From IMG/VR virus record IMGVR_UViG_3300025108_000316, positions 1 to 26,800 of that record: 26,800 nucleotides of DNA, one strand, 5' to 3'. Below, one piece after another: positions 2,991 through 13,211 of this stretch (positions within the stretch are counted from its first letter, which is position 1; the number at the start of each line of letters is the position of its first letter). This stretch comes from a virus. The position numbers and the translations under genes were made by a program. Below the pieces are notes generated by a model, which was not told where the DNA came from, ran no database searches, and saw only the letters and a program-made list of their open reading frames with translations.

Positions 2991-3016
2991 AGTTTACAAG
3001 CAATAAAGGAATTATT

Positions 3017-3229
3017 ATGGATATTACATTTACAAACCCGCACGAACAGTTTTGCTATGAAACCGCTATAAAGTTTTCTGCTATTAGAGGTTACGGTGCT
3101 AAACGTACTAGACAAGAGTTTACTAGCGCAGAAGATGCTATGACTTATGCTAAAACCTTTGGCGATAACAAAACAATGATTTATGCTATTAACGACCTTG
3201 GCAACTTTGCCCATATTTTTAACGCATAA
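3017..3229 (+). CDS. Small hypothetical protein on the opposite strand
   Basis: A 70-residue soluble protein, MDITFTNPHEQFCYETA..., rich in aromatic and charged residues, with no recognised domain. An AAAGGAA ribosome binding site lies 8 bases before the ATG and a good promoter lies at 2962-2990. It is flanked by minus-strand genes: the methyltransferase ends only two bases from its stop, tail to tail, and terS starts on its other side. Its isolated orientation and private promoter resemble a moron or an early regulator. An 84-residue frame on the minus strand over the same bases has no ribosome binding site and reads as a shadow. Confidence 0.75.
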   Translation: MDITFTNPHEQFCYETAIKFSAIRGYGAKRTRQEFTSAEDAMTYAKTFGDNKTMIYAINDLGNFAHIFNA

Positions 3230-3230
3230 T

Positions 3231-4562
3231 TTATTCATCATCGAAACCCGATAAGTCTACTTCTACTTCGCCACATTTTTCGGAGGCTACTCGGGGGTCG
3301 CCTTTTACAAATACTAACACGTTTTGATGTGTTTTACCTAGCTTTCTAGAAACTGAAAAACCTTTACCCGCTCTAAGAGGAAGGCTTCCGACCATAGTTA
3401 CTAATATGGCTTCGTTATAAAATTTTAAACCACTATCCAAAAAAGCGTTTATAGTTTCGCCTACAAAATTATAGTAATAACCTTTTTTGTCTCTAACTTC
3501 GCCAACTACAAAACAAGCGAAAGCGTCATTATTTAATAAACTACAACTTTTTTCTATTATTTTTTTATAATTAACTAAAAAGCTATTGTAATCCATGTTA
3601 GATAAATCGTTTTTATCATCACTATAAACTTCTAAATCTACATAAGGGGGACAGCTAAAAATTAAGTCGGCTTTTACATCTTTAAAAGTTTTATTAATAT
3701 TTATACTATCACCAATCTCCCAAATAGGTAAAAAGTTTTCGCAAATTAATTTAGATTGCTTTCTATTACTTTCTACCTGTTCAGACCGCAGTTCATGCCC
3801 AAAATAATTTTTTTCTAATTTACTGGCAATTATACCCCTTACACTACCACCCGCAAAAGGGTCAACGATATTGCCGTTTTTAGGACAAAACCACCTATAA
3901 ACTAACTCGCAAAGAACTGGGTCAAAAACACTAGTGTTACTAATTTTCATACCCGCCATTTCAGCTATATTATTATTAAAGGTTAATTCTTCATCACGAC
4001 CTTCTTCTGATTCTATTCCTAATTCTATCCATTTTTTCTTTCTATCTTGCCACCAACCGTCACGACTATTTAACACACTAAATGGCGGTGCTAAAAATTT
4101 ATTGGTTAAATTACCCGCCCTATTTATTTCTTCTTCTTTTTCATCGAAAAGGTTACCAAGTTCATCTAAAGAAAAACCTGTTAATTCTAAATTAAAATTT
4201 AAATCAGTAAGTTCGTTAAATTCTACTTTAAGAAGTTCTTCATCCCAACCCGCATTTAAAGCTAATTTATTATCAGCTATGACGTATGCTTTTTTTTGCG
4301 CTTCAGTCCAATCATCGGCTTGAATACAAGGTACTTCTTTTAAATTTAATTTTTTAGCCGCTAAAAGTCTACCGTGACCCGCTATTATTTCATTTTGTGC
4401 ATCGACTAAGATAGGGTTGGTAAAACCCCATTCTTTTATACTTGAAGCTATCTGTGTAATTTGTTCGTCGCTATGAGTTCGACTATTTCTAGCATACGGT
4501 ATAAGCGTTTCTATGTTTCTTCGCTCTACCTTATCAGCAGGCCAAGACCGTCCATCGTGCAT
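3231..4562 (-). CDS. ParB-like nuclease domain fused to a DNA methyltransferase
   Basis: A 443-residue two-domain protein. Residues about 15-100 form a ParB/Srx-type fold, with LIPYARNSRTH and IIAGHGRLLAAK. The C-terminal part is an S-adenosylmethionine-dependent amino-methyltransferase: the cofactor motif VDPFAGGS (233-240) precedes a catalytic SCPPY (303-307), followed by DLEVYSDD. The CPPY form replaces the commoner DPPY/SPPY; I have seen it in this phage family. It probably methylates adenine or cytosine amino groups, protecting phage DNA or marking packaging or regulatory sites. No restriction endonuclease partner is visible. The ATG at 4562 has AAAGGG upstream, and a promoter candidate lies at 4588-4615. 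Confidence 0.85.
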   Translation of the reverse strand: MHDGRSWPADKVERRNIETLIPYARNSRTHSDEQITQIASSIKEWGFTNPILVDAQNEIIAGHGRLLAAKKLNLKEVPCIQADDWTEAQKKAYVIADNKLALNAGWDEELLKVEFNELTDLNFNLELTGFSLDELGNLFDEKEEEINRAGNLTNKFLAPPFSVLNSRDGWWQDRKKKWIELGIESEEGRDEELTFNNNIAEMAGMKISNTSVFDPVLCELVYRWFCPKNGNIVDPFAGGSVRGIIASKLEKNYFGHELRSEQVESNRKQSKLICENFLPIWEIGDSININKTFKDVKADLIFSCPPYVDLEVYSDDKNDLSNMDYNSFLVNYKKIIEKSCSLLNNDAFACFVVGEVRDKKGYYYNFVGETINAFLDSGLKFYNEAILVTMVGSLPLRAGKGFSVSRKLGKTHQNVLVFVKGDPRVASEKCGEVEVDLSGFDDE

Positions 4563-4587
4563 GGGTGCGCCCTTTCTGTTGTTTTAT

Positions 4588-4615
4588 ATTATACCTAAAA
4601 AAATCCCCCGCGCAA
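4588..4615 (-). promoter_or_regulatory. Candidate leftward (late?) promoter overlapping a terminator
   Basis: On the minus strand, TTGCGC (4615-4610), 16 bases, then a perfect TATAAT (4593-4588). Transcription would begin near 4581, about 19 bases before the methyltransferase ATG. The -35 and spacer lie inside the terminator hairpin and its U tract (4597-4623), so the replication transcript ends where the packaging transcript would begin. The -35 is only partly consensus. Confidence 0.5.
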
Positions 4616-4623
4616 GGCGAGGG
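4597..4623 (-). terminator. Intrinsic terminator of the leftward replication operon / small RNA
   Basis: On the minus strand, CCCTCGC (4623-4617) pairs with GCGGGGG (4611-4605) around a 5-base loop. One base (A) then precedes seven U residues (4603-4597). This is a textbook rho-independent terminator and the strongest in the window. Confidence 0.85.
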
Positions 4624-4703
4624 AAGTTGGCGAGGTAATTCAGTCCGTAAAAAAGCAGTATATAGCGGAACTAATTCGAACAGGGAGGAGTTCGTGACCT
4701 CGC
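4597..4703 (-). ncRNA. Candidate small RNA with an anti-Shine-Dalgarno loop
   Basis: In the 100-base gap after the gene ending at 4721, the minus strand can fold into a compact RNA. GCGAGGT (4703-4697) pairs perfectly with ACCTCGC (4636-4630), closing a domain of 74 bases. Inside, CGAAC (4694-4690) and GTTCG (4681-4677) form a hairpin whose 8-base loop is UCCUCCCU (4689-4682). The intrinsic terminator at 4623-4597 follows. An extended -10-like TGTTATACA lies at 4717-4709, placing a possible start at the first base of the closing stem. Alternatively it is processed from the operon's 3' end. C/U-rich loops of this kind pair with mRNA ribosome binding sites in alphaproteobacterial small RNAs. 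Existence as a discrete RNA is inference. Confidence 0.45.
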
Positions 4704-4720
4704 TACCTGTATAACACCAT

Positions 4721-5188
4721 CTAATCATTTTTCATACGTTTCAAGTATTCTTTGTATGGTTGTAGTTGTTTTTCTGCAACAAGACCCGCTCTGACCATCT
4801 GTTCGCCTAAAGCACCCAATATATAACTTTCGCCCACTGGCTCACCGTTTTTTATTCTTTCAGCGTTTATTTTTAATTCGTTAGGCTCATATTTTTCAGG
4901 TGTAAGTTCTTTAAATTCAGGTCGCCTTGGCGCTATTTCTTTAGCAGATCTACTAATTTCCTTTGCTGTAGGCCAAGTTCTTGTTTCCATTTTACTTAAT
5001 AGATTTTCTTCAAAATCATTAAACCACTGCGAATAGTTTTGACTAGGTGCTAATTTTATAATTTGACTGCATAAAAACTCTGCTTCGCTTTTCATGTTTT
5101 CGTCATTGTTTTGCACTGATCTAGGGGCGTTAAGCCTACCTAATAATTTTAAAGTAAAAACTTTTAGCTCTTCTTTTCTATGTCCCAT
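4721..5188 (-). CDS. Hypothetical replication-operon protein (lambda P position)
   Basis: A 155-residue, mostly helical and charged protein starting MGHRKEELKVFTLKLLGRL and ending QPYKEYLKRMKND. There is no Walker motif, so it is not a DnaC-type ATPase. It overlaps the 3' end of the initiator gene by 25 bases and is the last gene before a strong terminator. In lambda-like replication modules the gene after the O-type initiator encodes the helicase loader or adaptor. That role is possible here by position only; no sequence similarity is claimed. The central TWPTAKEISRSAKEIAP resembles a short helix-turn-helix-like element but is not diagnostic. Confidence 0.7.
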   Translation of the reverse strand: MGHRKEELKVFTLKLLGRLNAPRSVQNNDENMKSEAEFLCSQIIKLAPSQNYSQWFNDFEENLLSKMETRTWPTAKEISRSAKEIAPRRPEFKELTPEKYEPNELKINAERIKNGEPVGESYILGALGEQMVRAGLVAEKQLQPYKEYLKRMKND

Positions 5189-5994
5189 GTATAATAACTT
5201 TCATCGTAATCTGTTTCCCTGTGATGATTAATAGTTTTAATTAATAATTCTGCTTCGTTTAATTTTTTTTCCTCTTCTTTAGCTTTTGCAATATCTTCAT
5301 TTAATACTTTTATAGCATTTTCTAAAACATCCTTTTGTATATTATCAGGTAGAATTTCATAATGGTCCTCCCATCTTTCTTGATTTAGCCATGTACTTGC
5401 GTGAGGTAAAAACTGCTTTTTAGTATCTTTATGGGCTTCTATAAAAATGTCTAACTTTTCCATTAACTCTTCAAAACTAATTTTCATATGTGCTTTTGCA
5501 TATGCCTTCTGAGCGGGTGCTTTTGCTGTTTTTCTAGGGTACTTTTCCCAAAACTTATTAAACTGTTCCTCAACAACATCTATCGAGCGTACTAACATAA
5601 TAGGTTCATTGGATGGTTTATTGGATGGTTTGGGTGAACCTTGTGCAGGGGTAGGGCTGAATGTCATGCCGTGGTAGGGGTGAACGTCATTCAGTGGTGG
5701 CCTAGTTGAAGGTAGTTTGCTAACTATTTGTAAATTAATTTGGTAATCTATAGTGTAACCGTGGCGGCACTCTTTTTGCCCTGTTACCTTTAAAACACCC
5801 ATTGCCAACATTTCTTTAATATGCTGACGAACAGCGCGACTAGACATTTCTAAATCTGCCGCCATATTTCCTTTACTTACCCATATACCGCTTCCATCAT
5901 CACTGGCCTTATCTGCCATATACATAAGAATTGATTTTTTCGTAGGCGAGCCAATTAATTTTGTTTGTATTACGTTTGAAACTAGGTTACTCAT
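5164..5994 (-). CDS. Lambda O-like replication initiator with winged-helix domain
   Basis: A 276-residue protein. Residues about 10-95 form a winged helix-turn-helix (PTKKSILMYMADKAS, GNMAADLEMSSRAVRQHIKEM, then a beta wing). A Pro/Ser-rich linker follows (about 96-130, including KPSNKPSNEP). The C-terminal domain holds FWEKYPRKTAKAPAQKAYAKA and FLPHASTWLNQERWED, a combination common in phage replication organisers. It should bind the origin and recruit the host helicase and replisome, since no phage polymerase is visible. The linker coding region carries 23-bp-spaced repeats, as in lambda O. A ribosome binding site AAGGAG lies 12 bases before the ATG, a long spacing. It overlaps the downstream gene by 25 bases. 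Confidence 0.8.
   Translation of the reverse strand: MSNLVSNVIQTKLIGSPTKKSILMYMADKASDDGSGIWVSKGNMAADLEMSSRAVRQHIKEMLAMGVLKVTGQKECRHGYTIDYQINLQIVSKLPSTRPPLNDVHPYHGMTFSPTPAQGSPKPSNKPSNEPIMLVRSIDVVEEQFNKFWEKYPRKTAKAPAQKAYAKAHMKISFEELMEKLDIFIEAHKDTKKQFLPHASTWLNQERWEDHYEILPDNIQKDVLENAIKVLNEDIAKAKEEEKKLNEAELLIKTINHHRETDYDESYYTWDIEKKS
5608..5690. other. Candidate replication origin: iterons inside the initiator gene
   Basis: Two 18-base repeats, GGTAGGGCTGAATGTCAT (5650-5667) and GGTAGGGGTGAACGTCAT (5673-5690), differ at two positions and start 23 bases apart. A third, degenerate copy at 5627-5644 (13 of 18 matches to the second) keeps the same 23-base period. Next to it, ATTGGATGGTTT occurs twice in tandem (5608-5631), flanked by the inverted pair AGGTTCA (5602-5608) and TGAACCT (5635-5641). 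All lie in the linker region between the DNA-binding and C-terminal domains. This is the arrangement of the lambda origin within gene O; function here is inferred. Confidence 0.55.
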
Positions 5995-9405: not shown

Positions 9406-9813
9406 TTAAAATTCTTTTGCCTTGTGAACAGACTTAATAAGTTTATCAGTATAACCCCGCCCATAAACGGAGCCATTTTTTCTTAACTTGGGAAGCTCAA
9501 CTTCCAAAGTTGGTAGTCTTAACCCTGCATCGAAAAGACATTCTTTTTTCTTAATGTCAGTGTCATAACCCCAAACTCCTGATTGCGTCCAAGTAAAATT
9601 TTCATGTTTAGAAGCATCATATAAATTAACGTCTATCCATTTATTGTCTAAATTCCAATAAGTTCCAAAACTACTTTGTACTTCTTGAAGAACATCAACA
9701 ACTGACCTTACTTTTCCTTGCCTTACAGCATGAGCATTTCCCGCGCCTATAAAAACCAGTGCTAAATACCAGTCATCACTTTTCAACGCAGAGCGTCTAG
9801 TTACATTAGTCAT
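9406..9813 (-). CDS. Hypothetical protein
   Basis: A 135-residue protein starting MTNVTRRSALKSDDWYLAL and ending DKLIKSVHKAKEF. It is rich in aromatic residues in the middle (FGTYWNLDNKWIDVNLYD, FTWTQSGVWGYD). There is no transmembrane segment and no recognised domain. AAAAGGAAAA lies before the ATG. It probably has its own leftward promoter (9874-9902) and is followed by RusA 63 bases further on, so the two may share a transcript. Confidence 0.7.
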   Translation of the reverse strand: MTNVTRRSALKSDDWYLALVFIGAGNAHAVRQGKVRSVVDVLQEVQSSFGTYWNLDNKWIDVNLYDASKHENFTWTQSGVWGYDTDIKKKECLFDAGLRLPTLEVELPKLRKNGSVYGRGYTDKLIKSVHKAKEF

Positions 9814-9873
9814 AGACTTTTCCTTTTTGCTAAATTGTCAAATAACGTACAAGTAAATTTTTCTTGTAAGTAA

Positions 9874-9902
9874 AGGATACTATATATTTTTGTAAATGTC
9901 GA
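9874..9902 (-). promoter_or_regulatory. Candidate leftward promoter
   Basis: On the minus strand, TCGACA (9902-9897), 17 bases, TATCCT (9879-9874). It would serve the gene starting at 9813. The -10 is moderate. It lies back to back with the rightward promoter at 9949-9977. Confidence 0.4.
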
Positions 9903-9918
9903 GAGGTTTTTTTGTAAA

Positions 9919-9977
9919 GTTACGTTACGTTATTTACGAATTTAATACTGGACACTTACGTTTTTTTACGCTATCAT
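9919..9977 (+). promoter_or_regulatory. TTACG operator-like array and rightward sigma70-like promoter
   Basis: The promoter is TGGACA (9949-9954), 17 bases, TATCAT (9972-9977), upstream of the gene at 10008. TTACG occurs at 9920, 9925, 9934, 9956 and 9966: five copies in about 50 bases, two of them inside the spacer. The same hexamer and TTACG-T7 spacer are found at 2962-2990. The remaining part of the 194-base gap (9814-10007) holds the leftward promoter and an ACAAG/CTTGT inverted pair near 9849-9866. Confidence 0.6.
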
Positions 9978-10007
9978 TAACGTATAAGCAAAAAGGAATA
10001 AATTAAA

Positions 10008-10139
10008 ATGAAATATTACGGACATGAAATTTTTGACGAACGCGAAGTAGACAAAGGTTTTGAGGTAGAAATGTTTGGATGGATTTATGAGTTTGAAACG
10101 GTAGAGGAAGCAAAAAAGTTTATAAAAGAAAACAAGTAA
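10008..10139 (+). CDS. 43-residue hypothetical protein
   Basis: A short soluble protein, MKYYGHEIFDEREVDKGFEV, continuing to YEFETVEEAKKFIKENK. AAAAGGAA lies 10 bases before the ATG and a good promoter sits at 9949-9977. The strand-then-helix pattern with a closing EEAKKFI helix suggests a small alpha/beta domain. It is similar in design to the isolated gene at 3017-3229, which has the same promoter type and a comparable EDAMTYAK helix, but the sequences are not clearly homologous. Confidence 0.65.
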   Translation: MKYYGHEIFDEREVDKGFEVEMFGWIYEFETVEEAKKFIKENK

Positions 10140-10153
10140 CTTTAACCCTAGCG

Positions 10154-10168
10154 GGGGGGCAACCCCCC
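10154..10168 (+). other. GC-rich hairpin
   Basis: GGGGGG (10154-10159), CAA, CCCCCC (10163-10168): a very stable short hairpin in the 44-base gap between two plus-strand genes. There is no T tract, so it is either a weak or factor-dependent terminator or an mRNA-stabilising element. The next gene's AAAGGAG follows two bases later. Confidence 0.5.
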
Positions 10169-10183
10169 AGAAAGGAGCCTCAC

Positions 10184-10543
10184 ATGGCTTATACACCGCG
10201 CACTAAAAACCCAATTACTTTTGGCATATCTCTAACTGGCCAGAAATATTACACTAGCACAGAGGTCGAACACTTTTGGGAATGTGCCGATAATATCAAG
10301 CCGCTTCAATTAATGCACGATTATCGTGATTTTCTGAAAGCTTGGTTGCATGGCAAAATTAAAAAAAGCACCTTAGTCGATAGTGAAGTGCTTAAATTAT
10401 TTGCAGGCGATTTAGATAATCGTGCCGACATTGACTACCGCGAAGGGCATTGGGAAGATGACCCCAACATAGTTGCAGGCGGTAAATACTTTGCTAAAAA
10501 ACAAGCGGAGTTATACTCACACATTAAAAAGAAAGGGGCTTAA
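10184..10543 (+). CDS. Hypothetical protein
   Basis: A 119-residue protein, MAYTPRTKNPITFGISLTGQ..., with central helices (LMHDYRDFLKAWLHGKIKK, SEVLKLFAGDLDNRAD) and an acidic, aromatic segment (YREGHWEDDPN). No domain is recognised. AAAGGAG lies 9-10 bases before the ATG. The stop codon falls in the loop of a hairpin (10535-10550). Confidence 0.7.
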   Translation: MAYTPRTKNPITFGISLTGQKYYTSTEVEHFWECADNIKPLQLMHDYRDFLKAWLHGKIKKSTLVDSEVLKLFAGDLDNRADIDYREGHWEDDPNIVAGGKYFAKKQAELYSHIKKKGA

Positions 10544-12759: not shown

Positions 12760-12939
12760 ATGGAAATAAAACCAGAAGATAGGGACACTAGAGACAGTAT
12801 AAAAAGACAAATAGATAGGCTAGAACCTTTAGCTTTACTACCAAAATCACCGCCATCAGTTAAACAAGAATATAGAGAAGCAAAAGAAGCTATGGCAACA
12901 TTAGTTAAAAAACTTAGAGAGGAAGGAGTTAGAATATGA
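12760..12939 (+). CDS. Hypothetical small helical protein
   Basis: A 59-residue protein, MEIKPEDRDTRDSIKRQIDR, then LEPLALLPKSPPSVKQEYRE and a final basic helix. AAAGGAGG lies just before the ATG and its TGA overlaps the next ATG (ATGA), so translation is well supported despite the short length. Two helices joined by a proline-rich turn are likely; the function is unknown. Confidence 0.6.
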   Translation: MEIKPEDRDTRDSIKRQIDRLEPLALLPKSPPSVKQEYREAKEAMATLVKKLREEGVRI

Positions 12940-13211
12940 AACCTTGGGAGGAATTAAGAAAAAAGCAAGCTACGGAAGTAAAAGAGCTATTAAAAATGTT
13001 TAGCCATTTAACAATAGTTGAAGCCTCAAAAGCAATGGGAATAGATAGCCATGCACTTCGAACACACGCATTTAGATTTGGCGTTGAATTTACCAAAAGC
13101 TACGGAGGAAAAACATCAATAGAAACTGATAAGAAAAAAATAAAAAACCAAAGAATAAGTTTACCTAGAGCTCCTTGGGATGTTCGTGGGGAGGATATTA
13201 AACGACACTAA
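12936..13211 (+). CDS. Putative helix-turn-helix protein
   Basis: A 91-residue basic protein. Residues about 15-50 (VKELLKMFSHLTIVEASKAM, GIDSHALRTHAFRFGVEF) fit a homeodomain-like helix-turn-helix of the kind found in resolvases and small phage regulators. The C-terminal part is basic and proline-rich (KKIKNQRISLPRAPWD). Site-specific DNA binding is likely and could regulate the switch to late genes, but there is no direct evidence for a target. GGAAGGAG precedes the ATG. Confidence 0.68.
   Translation: MKPWEELRKKQATEVKELLKMFSHLTIVEASKAMGIDSHALRTHAFRFGVEFTKSYGGKTSIETDKKKIKNQRISLPRAPWDVRGEDIKRH

Follow-up and report, generated by a model that had tools for sequence, protein, structure and literature searches.

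Anti-Shine-Dalgarno RNAs of bacteria and small RNAs of phages

AbcR1 and AbcR2 (alpha-r15) of alphaproteobacteria carry an anti-Shine-Dalgarno (aSD) seed, aSD1, with the sequence CUCCUCCC in the loop of their 5' hairpin; they repress translation at ribosome-binding sites and possess a second targeting region further along the RNA (PMC8844928). The phage RNA described here, which is encoded in a stretch of 26,800 nt of viral DNA (the window), is similar to them in its overall plan, and they represent its nearest functional analogue. The aSD1 seed is present in the phage RNA, where it is made up of the loop UCCUCCCU and the C that precedes it, and is invariant in 18 sequences; the likeness to alphaproteobacterial small RNAs drawn in an earlier note on this DNA is thus apt. 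In contrast, the second aSD of AbcR, UUCCCCUC, which is located between SL1 and SL2, is absent, and the phage RNA and its homologues have ACUGCUUUUUU. The phage RNA further differs from AbcR in that it is phage-borne, in that a closing stem surrounds both hairpins, and in that no copy was found in the bacterial genomes searched. No Rfam family matched the RNA at its gathering score, and no AbcR or alpha-r15 family was among the Rfam matches up to an E-value of 10, for which Rfam 15 may have no alpha-r15 model.

NfeR1 and the alpha-r14 RNAs display unpaired aSD loops of the CCUCCUCCC type, a motif that NfeR1 carries three times (PMC10746234), and combine conserved loops and variable stems with repression at ribosome-binding sites (PMC10746234, PMC3927594). 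They share with the phage RNA a conserved aSD-type loop on variable stems; however, they consist of three hairpins with the same motif, whereas the phage RNA contains one such hairpin and a different second loop. Loops of the CCUCCUCCC type also characterize CcsR1-4, the 'cuckoo' RNAs of Rhodobacter, which form a stress-linked small-RNA group. Four of these RNAs are transcribed together with a gene for a DUF1127 protein (PMC10253847), in contrast to the single copy of the phage RNA. Covariance matches below threshold were obtained for SorX (RF02784; 17.6 bits versus a gathering score of 46.6) and anti-hemB (RF02837; 17.4 bits versus 49.5), neither of which amounts to membership; CUCCUCCCUG and a terminator are common to anti-hemB and the phage RNA. 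By analogy, we think that the phage RNA works like AbcR and NfeR1, the likeness claimed being one of function.

To our knowledge, hardly any work has addressed small RNAs in marine phages outside the model systems. The phage-encoded small RNAs OOP, VpdS, 24B_1 and SvsR act on phage or host genes (PMC12197685, PMC12803456); as far as they are described in these sources, none contains an aSD hairpin loop, and the phages from which they derive are mostly temperate, whereas the phages considered here are without a detected integrase. A phage RNA built around an aSD hairpin loop was not found in the literature searched, and the present one defines a new RNA family of phages, although RNAs of this general type are known. 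With the family, it becomes possible to test whether a phage employs the same seed logic as post-transcriptional regulators of alphaproteobacteria, for which an alignment, a covariance model and a target prediction are now at hand.

Position and fold of the RNA

The RNA is located between the last gene of the replication operon and a ParB-methyltransferase gene (Table 1). Its length is approximately 107-114 nt, with the 3' end given by the terminator and the 5' end at about 4710-4703. The closing stem is correct in both sequence and coordinates as first proposed, and the 5-bp hairpin with its exposed loop and the terminator with seven U residues were likewise found in place. The proposed extended -10-like element is present, with coordinates that had been one base off (4716-4708 instead of 4709-4717). 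The conserved second hairpin, the upstream TTGAAA and the TATAAT beyond the U-tract are additions to the earlier note.

Table 1. Features of the small-RNA locus in the window
Feature	Position	Strand	Basis or remark
Small-RNA gene	4597..4710	-	Fold, covariance model R1, viral homologues
Closing stem P1, 5' arm GCGAGGU	4697..4703	-	Pairs with 4630-4636
Closing stem P1, 3' arm ACCUCGC	4630..4636	-	Pairs with 4697-4703
Hairpin 1, CGAAC 4694-4690 / GUUCG 4681-4677	4677..4694	-	Anti-SD loop UCCUCCCU 4689-4682
Hairpin 2, ~6-bp stem, long loop with seed ACUGCUUUUUU (4659-4649)	4642..4672	-
Intrinsic terminator, 8-bp stem (4624-4604), 5-nt loop, U7 (4603-4597)	4597..4624	-
Extended -10-like element TGTTATACA	4708..4716	-	Sequence; putative promoter
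Possible -35 TTGAAA	4739..4744	-	Inside end of upstream gene; sequence comparison
TATAAT directly past U-tract	4588..4593	-	Probable -10 of a separate promoter for the methyltransferase gene
Upstream gene, 155 aa, last of replication operon	4721..5188	-	Constant left neighbour of the RNA
Downstream gene, ParB-N + N6/N4 DNA methyltransferase	3231..4562	-	Usual right neighbour

The minimum free energy of the RNA is -35.7 kcal/mol compared with a shuffle mean of -25.4 (z = -3.03), and a fold energy as low is reached by 1 of 200 shuffles. The covariance model R1 matches positions 4710-4597 with 141.5 bits, a score obtained with a close copy already in the model. When hairpins that expose [CU]CUCCC and have a terminator behind them were sought with a simple search, the combination was found at one place in the window, the RNA site, and once in the 60 dinucleotide-shuffled windows that served as the control (0.017 per window). 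The loops are predicted to be unpaired (0.84-1.0) in most family members, the exception being L025, in which loop 1 is predicted to be accessible by half only. Conservation together with this predicted accessibility shows the two seeds to be single-stranded in the modelled folds.

Homologues and covariation

The RNA is carried at the same place by at least 25 related viral contigs, and in close relatives its position is unchanged. The upstream 155-aa protein as a query yielded 32 viral loci, which became 44 with an alignment, and DNA-pattern scans added a third lineage (L191, L205 and L209) along with L198 and L213. Among relatives, the RNA is 82-89% conserved, above its neighbours; between the window and L209, it is 82% identical over its length, compared with 48% for the upstream protein and 26% for the replication protein. 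The loop AACUCCUCCCUGUU and the UACUGC with the U-run are invariant or nearly so in 18 distinct sequences, and the anti-SD loop of hairpin 1 is invariant in all 18.

The stems around these loops covary. One pair of P1 alternates between C-G and U-A in a compensatory manner (8 versus 9 sequences), the second stem pair of hairpin 1 is G-C, A-U or C-G, and one stem pair of hairpin 2 is C-G, U-A or U-G among the homologues. In the alignment of the 18 distinct homologues, 96.9% of the stem cells are paired, 24 cells are double-changed (shuffles, 8.6), and covariation scores 0.191, with slid controls reaching at most 0.080, all of which are counts that take related sequences as separate. Since few pairs carry the signal and the sequences are related, the covariation is good but not overwhelming. 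The comparison of relatives had been set beforehand as a check; stem changes proved to be compensated and the loop conserved, and neither of the adverse outcomes, uncompensated stem changes or an unconserved loop, occurred. The original proposal, in which the phage encodes a small RNA whose anti-SD loop is functional, is thereby well supported, and the conserved phage RNA family is very probably real.

The alternations in the terminator between G-U and G-C (U-G/C-G) are compatible with pairing on the minus strand only. This strand preference, the centring of conservation on the loops and the U-tract, and the lack of iterons apparent by eye make it hardly credible that the conserved unit acts as DNA, for instance as an origin of replication or as inverted repeats bound by a protein, even though the locus adjoins replication genes and the plus strand of the region folds too (z -2.8). 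Equally remote is the reading that the stretch encodes a small protein from the 64-codon ORF beginning at 4728 (4534-4728, minus strand), which is uninterrupted across the entire RNA. Nearly all close members do have an open frame of 48-67 codons that starts with ATG; however, this reading is disfavoured because variable columns are spread evenly over the codon positions (12, 16 and 16 of 38 each), with no coding signature, and because one-base length differences shift the frame in L025, L027, L038, L042, L174 and L175 while the loops remain fixed. The divergent L044 group, moreover, encodes a different peptide.

In that group (L044, L045 and L181-L183; approximately 57-64% protein identity), the primary sequence at the same site is mostly changed, and the order of CCUCCC, ACUGCUUUUUU in a hairpin, terminator and TATAAT is kept. 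R1 finds these RNAs at the syntenic place with 17-22 bits; since terminators alone elsewhere also score 17-22 bits, the argument for the group rests on position and loops. At the site in L177-L179 and L043, a CCUCCC-exposing hairpin and a terminator are all that is left, which may represent homologous RNAs. In L028 (3470-3595), the terminator loop contains 12 inserted bases, and no other family member shows a length change this large.

Phage context and search for bacterial copies

The genes of the window are those of a small tailed phage, including terminase, an SU10-type portal, capsid, replication and single-strand-binding genes. Its closest cultured relatives by portal and terminase, at approximately 33-50% identity, include Octadecabacter Antarctic DB virus 2, the Pelagibacter phage HTVC106P and the Methylophilales phage Venkman, a relationship which suggests a marine phage; the phages carrying the RNA are uncultured and probably marine. 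A phage integrase family was sought and not found in 11 related contigs, of which several span 26-36 kb.

No copy of the RNA was detected in HTVC106P, Venkman or the Octadecabacter DB2 virus, nor with two covariance models in 385 sampled alphaproteobacterial genomes. The covariance matches returned from these genomes were terminators or, at one site, lay inside a coding gene. Across 84,980 genomes, a scan with a DNA pattern produced 74 matches; the ones that were inspected resemble chance occurrences, and the loose pattern CTCCC..ACTGCTTTTT in viral contigs also gave chance matches nearly throughout.

Putative promoter elements and neighbouring genes

The possible -35 hexamer TTGAAA is followed after 17 nt by 4721-4716, which reads GATGGT in the window, a weaker form, and GATTAT in most relatives. 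In L209, the corresponding unit is TTGAAA, 18 nt and TATAAT, and it lies immediately in front of ACAGG, which makes up the conserved 5' end of the RNA. The TATAAT past the U-tract is conserved in L022-L042 and L044-L052, with TACAAT in L209. Given the promoter-like elements before the RNA and the separate TATAAT beyond its U-tract, the RNA looks like its own transcription unit and, as judged from these sequence elements, is probably transcribed independently. Within 4588-4624 of the window, TATAAT comes only a few bases after the terminator, and TTGCG in the terminator loop lies approximately 16 nt upstream of it; the terminator and the promoter of the next gene may thus overlap, in an arrangement that relatives conserve.

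The RNA could instead be the end of the replication-operon transcript, comprising its 3' UTR and terminator, in which case any stable RNA would arise by processing of this mRNA and could still act through base pairing. Only approximately 10 nt separate its start from the stop codon of the upstream gene, to which it is tied and the product of which has no PHROG match, and in L209 the upstream ORF extends into the first stem of the RNA. However, two invariant loops and covarying upstream helices are needless for a plain terminator, and a -10-like element, which is a full TATAAT in L209, precedes the RNA; we therefore consider a 3'-UTR origin unlikely, while giving it some weight.

A cis-acting leader of the ParB-methyltransferase gene, i.e., an attenuator or riboswitch with the closing stem as the switch, is conceivable in that this gene lies directly downstream and that GCGAGG of the P1 5' arm in the window could also pair with CCUCGC of the terminator. 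However, this alternative pairing is broken in L023, L027, L032, L039 and L042 (terminator arm CCCCUGCC), the downstream gene has its own TATAAT past the terminator, and the RNA stays in L044, L046-L048 and L174, in which the right neighbour is another gene. Since the alternative pairing is lost in the CCCCUGCC members and the downstream gene is exchanged, a cis switch is disfavoured and appears highly improbable. In L174 (contig 3300020414_000261), most of the ParB-methyltransferase gene has apparently been deleted with the RNA kept, and a short methyltransferase start remains, fused towards the next gene.

Proposed mode of action

We propose that a phage-encoded, terminated small RNA, transcribed independently, would present two single-stranded seeds, of which CUCCUCCC belongs to hairpin 1 and ACUGCUUUUUU to hairpin 2. 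The former would pair with the Shine-Dalgarno region of an mRNA and block translation initiation, while the latter would add adjacent pairing on some targets; the targets would be host and/or phage mRNAs. The pairing and blocking step is inferred from the seed sequence and from RNAs of the AbcR/NfeR1 type. As a whole, the reading of a terminated trans-acting small RNA that blocks ribosome-binding sites is reasonably likely, and its component of action in trans by base pairing with ribosome-binding sites is, taken separately, modestly likely. A more elaborate version appears doubtful, namely that the bipartite seed of a phage-specific family, an anti-SD loop and a further antisense loop, would clamp a selected phage or host mRNA at two neighbouring sites that cover its ribosome-binding site. 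The RNA would thus mimic the AbcR-type regulators of the host in function and reprogram translation in the course of infection, with the target leader sometimes swapped as an escape.

The U-rich loop and the U7 tail are Hfq-like features. They would suit a sponge or decoy that does not block mRNAs but uses its aSD-like or U-rich loop to titrate a small RNA of the host or an RNA-binding protein such as Hfq, as would the precedent of phage VpdS, which is described as competing with host RNAs for Hfq (PMC12197685). Two sequence-specific invariant loops nevertheless exceed the needs of a U-rich decoy, and such a role is quite unlikely.

Candidate targets

For the proposed trans-acting RNA, the start regions of 460 predicted ORFs from nine related phages were compared with both loops. 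Loop 1 matches many leaders to some degree since anti-SD pairing is generic. The standout gene encodes a 123-aa protein (MKQHYLALVFIG...) in three phages, L290, L292 and L300. Its leader in L290 reads UAAAAAAGCAGUAA-AGGAGUUU-UGUCAUG, in which 14 nt match loop 2 of the phage's own RNA and the adjoining 8 nt, the Shine-Dalgarno sequence, match loop 1, as a contiguous Watson-Crick match in the correct antiparallel order over the ribosome-binding site; the leaders in L292 and L300 match both loops over 13 + 7 nt. When the leader set was shuffled 100 times, matches of 11 plus 6 nt or longer never occurred. Being near-identical copies, the three leaders are not independent, and among orthologous leaders the bipartite match is limited to these three phages: the both-loop site is absent from those of L303, L304 and the window, where the leader is located upstream of 9813 on the minus strand, and the sequence in these is different. 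A similar leader is also present in a 34-kb phage contig in which the RNA could not be recognised. Nested cofolding, a method that cannot model two kissing loops, ranks the MKQHYLALVFIG leader approximately 19th of 460. The target prediction suggested in the earlier note has therefore provided one strong phage candidate, which is lineage-specific and without a site in the window's own phage. Through its leader match to both seeds, the 123-aa gene may be regulated by the RNA in L290, L292 and L300, and the leader is perhaps a lineage-specific target, to be taken as a lead and not as proof.

Other candidates were rejected. The Rep-initiator mRNA of the window contains AAAAAGCAGU at 5421 and GGGAGGA at 5372 in the right order, neither of which is found at that place in relatives. 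A search for host target leaders returned 1 pattern match versus 3 in the reversed control, the match being in apparent coding sequence, and a viral scan for the target leader motif returned mostly one recurring coding-like sequence (KAVEEL-type) in unrelated contigs. In this regard, AAAAAGCAGT-NN-AGGAGTT recurs in L322, L325, L334 and many viral contigs, and reads as a conserved coding motif (AGQKAVEEL-like) that is unrelated to the RNA and constitutes a trap for pattern searches.

The leader of a 91-aa gene (MKPWEELRKKQA; window 12936-13211, plus strand) contains AAGGAGTT, and five relatives have AGGGAGGA; both are complementary to loop 1 over 7-9 nt and overlap the coding end of the preceding gene. 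Since the loop-1 match is strong in five relatives and weaker in the window, the MKPWEELRKKQA leader is kept as a lead only. The leader of the gene at 9406-9813 (window 9813-10184, minus strand; L290 ~3004-3060) carries a palindrome such as ACAAGTAAATTTTTACTTGT, which is likely an operator. The upstream part of this leader is similar among relatives, and the ribosome-binding segment with the first codons is of two types.
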